Shown here: one piece after another, positions 39,517 to 41,441 of the stretch
Numbering within the stretch: position 1 is the stretch's first letter
Layout of the letters: each line of letters begins with the position of its first letter
Assembly (NCBI GenBank): GCA_023667845.1
Contig: JAMPIU010000144.1
Span: 1-64,000, forward strand
DNA from: Dehalobacter sp.
Lineage (GTDB): Bacteria > Bacillota > Desulfitobacteriia > Desulfitobacteriales > Syntrophobotulaceae
Length of the DNA stretch: 64,000 nucleotides
Reading direction: 5' to 3'
Notes under the pieces: model-generated
Seen by the model: the letters and a program-made list of their open reading frames with translations, nothing else
Told to the model about the DNA's origin: nothing
The model's database searches: none
Position numbers and translations under genes: made by a program

Positions 39517-39545
39517 TTGACTTTACCTAACGGTTTTTTTATAGT
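39517..39545 (+). promoter_or_regulatory. SigmaA-type promoter of the nif operon
   Basis: TTGACT (39517-39522), 17 bases, TATAGT (39540-39545). It leaves a leader of about 205 nt before nifI1. No sigma-54 or NifA site was found. Confidence 0.75.
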
Positions 39546-39570
39546 AATGGCATGGTTATTAAAGAACTAT

Positions 39571-39724
39571 AAGCAACGGCGCTTTCCCTCTTAATAATAA
39601 AAGGGGGAAAGTATTTTTTTGCCTTTTAGAGTACAGCTAGGGTTTTTAAATTATTATTCATGTTGGTTAAAGCAAAGGCGCTTTTGGACGGGGACTTACC
39701 CGGAGCAGAAGCGCCTTTTGTTTT
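39571..39724 (+). promoter_or_regulatory. nif leader with two terminator hairpins sharing a repeat
   Basis: Hairpin 1: CTTTCCCTCTT (39582-39592) with AAGGGGGAAAG (39601-39611), then TATTTTTTT. Hairpin 2: AAAGGCGCTT (39674-39683) with AAGCGCCTTT (39709-39718), inner CGGG/CCCG, then TTGTTTT. The 5' side of each has AAGCAA[C/A]GGCGCTTT (39571-39585 and 39670-39684). The distal arm AAGCGCC could pair with either copy, so the two hairpins could be remodelled. Looks like transcription attenuation of nif genes; the signal is unknown. Confidence 0.6.
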
Positions 39725-39758
39725 ATAAAAAAACATTCATAGAAGGAGGGGGTTCCAA

Positions 39759-40076
39759 ATGAAAATGGTCAGAGCGATTGTCAGACCAGAGAAAAGTGAA
39801 AGCATTGCTGAAAAATTAGCGGGAATTGGGATTGTATCCATGACAAAAATGCATGTATTTGGCCGTGGAAAAACCAAAGGTTTGCAGGTAGGAGATATTA
39901 TCTACGATGAGTTTCCCAAAGTAATGCTGATGATTGTTGTATCCGACGAGGAGTTGGAGAAAACAATTGAAGTGATCCTGGAAAATGGCAAAACAGGTAA
40001 CATTGGTGACGGGAAAATATTTATATCCGCTGTTGAAACGGCATACACAGTACGTACCGGCGAAGAGGCACTGTAA
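39759..40076 (+). CDS. nifI1: PII-like nitrogenase regulator NifI1
   Basis: 105 residues. The GlnB fold is clear (KMVRAIVRPEKSESIAEKLA; C-terminal GKTGNIGDGKIFISAVETAY). The T-loop region HVFGRGKTKGLQVGDIIY lacks the Tyr uridylylation motif of GlnB and matches the NifI1 type found between or before nifH in archaea and clostridia. With NifI2 it switches off nitrogenase activity in response to 2-oxoglutarate and ammonium. AGAAGGAGGGGG precedes the ATG. It is the first gene of the operon. Confidence 0.93.
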   Translation: MKMVRAIVRPEKSESIAEKLAGIGIVSMTKMHVFGRGKTKGLQVGDIIYDEFPKVMLMIVVSDEELEKTIEVILENGKTGNIGDGKIFISAVETAYTVRTGEEAL

Positions 40077-40090
40077 AGGAGTGATAGCAG

Positions 40091-41441
<1,351 letters not shown>

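Follow-up and report, generated by a model that had tools for sequence, protein, structure and literature searches.

Serial single-hexaloop hairpins as predicted ANTAR-type attenuators before the nif genes of a Dehalobacter

How anaerobic Bacillota switch nif where no sigma-54 promoter precedes the operon is poorly understood. We analyzed one such operon in a Dehalobacter sp. genome, within a stretch of 64,000 nucleotides (hereafter the window). A sequence-only reading of this locus had proposed an RNA switch for nitrogen control in which the last arm of the leader chooses between two copies of a repeated motif, had hinted at ANTAR proteins, and had left the ligand or protein unnamed. Here we describe the RNA folds that compete in the nif leader and a candidate factor that could decide between them.

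Promoter, terminators and competing folds in the nif leader

The two serial intrinsic terminators that had been proposed between a sigmaA-type promoter and nifI1 were borne out by the scan, the fold energies and the coordinates (Table 1). We found no good sigma-54 site near nifI1, and sigma-54 matches across the window were at chance level. The genome nevertheless encodes RpoN. The whole leader folds much more stably than dinucleotide shuffles (z = -5.3), and the leader had no match to any riboswitch or other family in Rfam at or above the gathering score.

Table 1. Features of the nif leader and operon, in window positions
Feature	Coordinates	Strand	Basis or remark
SigmaA-type promoter, TTGACT-17-TATAGT	39517..39545	+	Consensus scan; expected RNA start ~39552
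Hexaloop hairpin 1, AAGC-[AACGGC]-GCTT, A1/G4 loop, predicted P2-type ANTAR recognition hairpin	39571..39584	+	Kept in relatives
Repeat copy 1, AAGCAACGGCGCTTT	39571-39585
Intrinsic terminator 1	39581..39620	+	Stem 39581-39612, T-run 39614-39620
Hexaloop hairpin 2, AAAGC-[AAAGGC]-GCTTT	39669..39684	+
Repeat copy 2, AAGCAAAGGCGCTTT	39670-39684
Intrinsic terminator 2	~39676..39724	+	Stem 39676-39716, then TTTTGTTTT
Last arm, AAGCGCC	39709-39715
nifI1 (PII family), first gene after the leader	39759..40076	+	ORF; Pfam P-II 84 bits
nifI2 (PII family)	40091..40477	+	Name recognised from ORF translation
nifH, D, K, E, N, B and nifV-like genes	Downstream of nifI2, to ~50845		Recognised from ORF translations

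The repeat AAGCAAMGGCGCTTT occurs twice in the leader, as claimed, and has no third exact 15-mer copy in the window. It does not, however, simply precede the terminators, since the 3' half of the motif is itself the terminator 5' arm. At the RNA level, our preferred reading of the repeat is a mini-hairpin, AAGC-[AAMGGC]-GCTT, with A1 and G4 in its hexaloop. Terminator 1 uses the 3' strand of this hairpin in copy 1 as its 5' arm, and the 5' arm of terminator 2 includes the 3' half of the loop together with the 3' strand of hairpin 2. Because these strands are shared, hairpins 1 and 2 (-2.0 and -2.9 kcal/mol alone) and terminators 1 and 2 (-16.8 and -26.5 kcal/mol) are mutually exclusive. The terminator folds are far stronger, and the hairpins would therefore be favored only with a bound protein. 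The mutually exclusive pair predicted from these folds is a local one at each copy, hexaloop hairpin versus terminator. We are confident, short of certainty, that the nif leader comprises two serial transcription attenuators of the single-hexaloop ANTAR type. An RNA attenuator for nitrogen control, as first suggested, is supported as a reading of the locus.

The element in relatives

The same element precedes nifI1 elsewhere in the family. One copy is present in the leader L012, two in our genome, in L011 and in G003 (L101 and L111), and four in L013 (L018 duplicates this record), the second of which has an additional G in its stem. Across all these copies A1 and G4 are kept, and variation is seen at loop positions 3, 5 and 6. 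The best reading of the sequences is that single-hexaloop attenuators are arranged serially, one to four per leader. Conservation of AAGCAAMGGCGCTTT in relatives, which we checked, argues that it is not a chance repeat. Across the class, the motif followed by a T-run was found in 39 of 83 genomes, and a reversed control pattern gave few matches. Genes downstream of the motif encode type III glutamine synthetase (GSIII; Pfam GSIII_N), AmtB, NifI1, and amino-acid permease-like and chemoreceptor-like proteins, all names other than GSIII being taken from sequence recognition.

For GSIII, leaders were collected starting from the gene rather than from the motif (n = 49 in the class). A hairpin and terminator lie upstream in 47 of these, 45 identified by pattern and stem rule and two, with weaker hairpins, read by eye (L298 and L304; GAGT-TAAGAC-GCTC and GAGT-AAAGGC-GCTC). 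The remaining two, L246 (from G014) and L306, have no clear hairpin. When leaders were chosen by terminator overlap with no filter on the loop, A1 was present in 22, A2 in 24 and G4 in 24 of the 24 selected, although this filter was too strict, keeping 24 of 48 and missing leaders whose terminator reaches further upstream. The stem covaries: among 31 distinct GSIII hairpins, 92.9% of stem cells are paired, a percentage favored by the prior selection of hairpins with 4 bp or more of stem, and 24 are doubly changed versus 7.0 in shuffles. One stem pair uses all of GC, AU and CG, and stem variants include TAAGC/GCTTA, GGAGC/GCTCT, ACAGC/GCTGT, CGGC/GCCG and ATGC/GCAT.

Within our own genome, a relaxed pattern gave six matches versus four for its reversed form, and this pattern search revealed no obvious matching stems besides those of nif and GSIII. 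A match at C53 lies inside a coding sequence and was rejected as a target. We note several further leaders encountered in these searches. Single-hexaloop terminators also stand upstream of a UroD/methyltransferase-like gene (L113) and a chemoreceptor-like gene (L107/L136). Six GSIII loci (L087, L093, L094, L099, L110 and L246) share an upstream block, ACTTGTTATTT-N8-TGTGTTAA-TTTTT, which persists in the ANTAR-less G014 (L246) and is probably a promoter or operator. The amtB leaders L139, L140, L144, L147, L151, L155 and L156 carry a conserved palindrome-like GGTGTGCACAGCC / GGTTGTGCACAACC, often ACCCATGGGT, directly after the -10 box, possibly an operator acting at the DNA level. The pattern also caught a different repeated leader, AAGCAANGGNGCTTAC-GGCAANGAAGCCGCC, elsewhere in the phylum (L199, L200 and L201).

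The element as we read it has one hexaloop per terminator, and the main alternative, which we consider unlikely, is a canonical dual-hairpin substrate whose upstream P1 hairpin is degenerate or has another loop. The window offers one such candidate before copy 1, AUGGUU-AUUAAAG-AACUAU (39552-39570), which is part of the minimum-energy fold of the leader, and elsewhere in the phylum there is a canonical dual element (L213), with a 7-bp P1, an A1/G4 loop and a 4-nt linker. The L213 element served as the positive control of our P1 scan, which recovered its P1. However, the candidate has a 7-nt loop that lacks G at position 4, and an equivalent was neither present before copy 2 nor seen in relatives. 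ANNGNN hairpins of at least 3 bp and at most 35 nt upstream occur in 5 of 47 leaders versus 4.8 expected by chance, and requiring a stem of 4 bp or more likewise gave a chance-level result. Where a GSIII leader has a good promoter, the predicted -10 box mostly ends 4-24 nt before the stem, and in many the distance is just 4-16 nt, so that many have no room for a P1. The two window copies were also considered as a P1/P2 pair and rejected, as they lie ~85 nt apart with a terminator between them. Two features of the dual-hairpin family (Ramesh et al. 2012) are present, namely the A1/G4 hexaloop and its overlap with the 5' base of the terminator; P1 is absent, and strict membership therefore fails. 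The minimal single-hexaloop target, one hairpin with an A1/G4 hexaloop (Walshe et al. 2022, PMC8934654), is matched by the sequence.

Single-copy leaders also bear on the switch first proposed, in which either copy can serve as the partner of AAGCGCC in alternative long-range folds, perhaps under a small ligand. Both pairings with GGCGCTT are indeed possible (-13.7 kcal/mol for copy 1 and -18.8 kcal/mol for copy 2). Yet copy 1, ~85 nt upstream, is used by its own strong local terminator before the last arm exists, and the pairing with copy 2 is local and stronger. Leaders with one copy (GSIII, and nifI1 in L012) keep the architecture with no second copy to choose, and no Rfam family matches the leader. 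We give very little credence to a choice between copies and retain the local competition of hexaloop hairpin and terminator.

It counts against our reading that, in neighboring families, nifI1 leaders carry another conserved element, GGGCNCC-[hairpin CCAAATC/GATTTGG]-GGAGCG, followed by a strong terminator, AGAGAGCCC...GGGCTCTCT (alignment A4: L267-L271, L273, L275, L277-L283, L285 and L287-L291). Its two helices show compensatory changes, and a search of Rfam returned no match for it even at E 0.5. It is possibly an undescribed nif attenuator.

A candidate ANTAR reader and a proposed mechanism

The genome encodes exactly one ANTAR protein (G000:C18, 188 aa), outside the window and unlinked to nif, which is the obvious candidate for the protein that had been left unnamed; the earlier hint toward this family is in that respect supported. 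It consists of a pseudo-receiver, a coiled coil and an ANTAR domain (PF03861; 47.8 bits, above the curated cut-off of 27.3). The structural model has a mean pLDDT of 92.8, and its best solved match is RNA-bound EutV (6ww6; TM 0.84). The EutV residues Tyr164, which stacks on G4, and Met172, which plugs the loop (PMC8934654), are kept, as are Arg142, Lys143, Glu160, Arg168 and Arg175. Against this reader, the RNA-contacting Lys147 and Lys149 of EutV are replaced by Gln and Ile. In the receiver, D54 is replaced by Gly, and both the acidic pair and the otherwise conserved Lys are lost, so that the protein lacks the signature of a phosphorylation-activated, EutV-type receiver. With these residues gone, switching by phosphorylation at the usual site is unlikely. 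Most receivers of ANTAR proteins in the class (L164-L191 and L217-L236) similarly have no phospho-accepting Asp, and this holds in several subfamilies.

The motif and the ANTAR gene tend to occur together. We found the motif in 38 of 70 ANTAR-bearing genomes versus 1 of 13 ANTAR-less ones (Fisher p = 0.002, which is optimistic because the genomes are related). In G014, which is 90% complete and in which no ANTAR gene was detected, the GSIII promoter region is retained and both hairpin and terminator are gone. Against this association, two incomplete genomes (G016 and G051) contain copies of the motif with an ANTAR gene undetected. In G002 and G013, an ANTAR gene lies immediately downstream of a glutamine synthetase gene, on a contig that also holds GSIII.

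The hexaloops could instead be read by an RNA-binding protein of another kind, a reading suggested by the loss of the two RNA-contacting lysines in this ANTAR subfamily. We regard such a reader as very improbable, because the A1/G4 signature is the one defined by mutational work on ANTAR targets (PMC3369931), and because of the co-occurrence of motif and ANTAR genes and the disappearance of the element in G014. That the terminators, strong and intrinsic as both are, merely insulate nif without regulation is hardly credible, since they separate a promoter from the first gene of its own operon, and the hairpin that excludes them is conserved and covarying.

We propose that RNA polymerase starting at the sigmaA-type promoter would by default stop at terminator 1, and any polymerase that passes it would stop at terminator 2. 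Under nitrogen limitation (the presumed direction and signal), the ANTAR protein may bind each A1/G4 hexaloop as it emerges, and the bound AAGC/GCTT hairpin would withhold the terminator 5' arms and permit readthrough into nifI1-nifI2-nifHDK. With two attenuators in series, leakage into this expensive operon could be reduced multiplicatively, and the single attenuator of GSIII would give looser gating. On balance, though by a narrow preference, we extend this proposal to the class: its anaerobic Bacillota may regulate nif and ammonium assimilation through an ANTAR protein that acts as antiterminator on single hexaloops lacking a P1 and whose pseudo-receiver is not open to phosphorylation at the usual Asp, with the number of attenuators (one for GSIII, up to four for nif) setting stringency.

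Comparison with known ANTAR systems

In EutV, NasR and AmiR systems, an A1/G4 hexaloop hairpin overlaps the 5' base of the terminator, and in eut, changes to A1, G4 or the closing pairs lower induction (PMC3369931). Both hexaloops are needed for EutV in vivo, with a linker of 5-12 nt (PMC3369931), which weighs against our reading, and an extra 20 nt abolishes antitermination in vitro (PMC8934654). In the crystal structure of EutV with RNA, the dimer contacts one loop at a time, and the minimal target was redefined as a single hexaloop (PMC8934654). The leaders described here resemble those of EutV/EutW (Enterococcus faecalis eut) in four respects: the short-stem A1/G4 hexaloop, its 3' side serving as the 5' base of the terminator, the presence of an ANTAR protein, and the occurrence of at least two attenuated leaders in a genome. 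They differ in having one hexaloop per terminator rather than P1 and P2, in serial arrays of up to four, in a receiver without the phosphorylated Asp, and in their targets, which are nitrogen-assimilation genes.

AmiR of Pseudomonas aeruginosa is held by the sensor AmiC. It likewise combines a pseudo-receiver lacking the usual Asp with an ANTAR domain, which rules out activation through phosphorylation of that residue, and its structure (1qo0) is a fold match. NitR of Clostridium saccharobutylicum is described as an ANTAR regulator inducing GS/GOGAT genes on nitrogen limitation (PMC6316151). By that description, the likeness lies in the pairing of ANTAR with ammonium assimilation and in the ANTAR gene following glutamine synthetase in two relatives, whereas in our own genome the ANTAR gene is not adjacent to glnA.

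That ANTAR proteins control genes for nitrogenase and glutamine synthetase was predicted in 2012, and the kind is already known in that sense. Ramesh et al. (2012, PMC3369931) predicted nitrogen-gene regulons for Pelobacter carbinolicus nitrogenase and for Desulfotomaculum acetoxidans, with the same gene themes of nitrogenase, PII, ammonium transporters and glutamine synthetase. Their search used a dual-hairpin model and was not aimed at single-hexaloop leaders. In the open-access literature, we found no single-hexaloop regulon, no serial arrays before nif, and no pseudo-receiver ANTAR subfamily as their reader. For nif control of this kind, our analysis puts forward one specific switch together with its candidate regulator and a regulon. 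Single-hexaloop terminators that occur naturally in many genomes, a few bases after a promoter, also provide material on the question of one versus two hexaloops.
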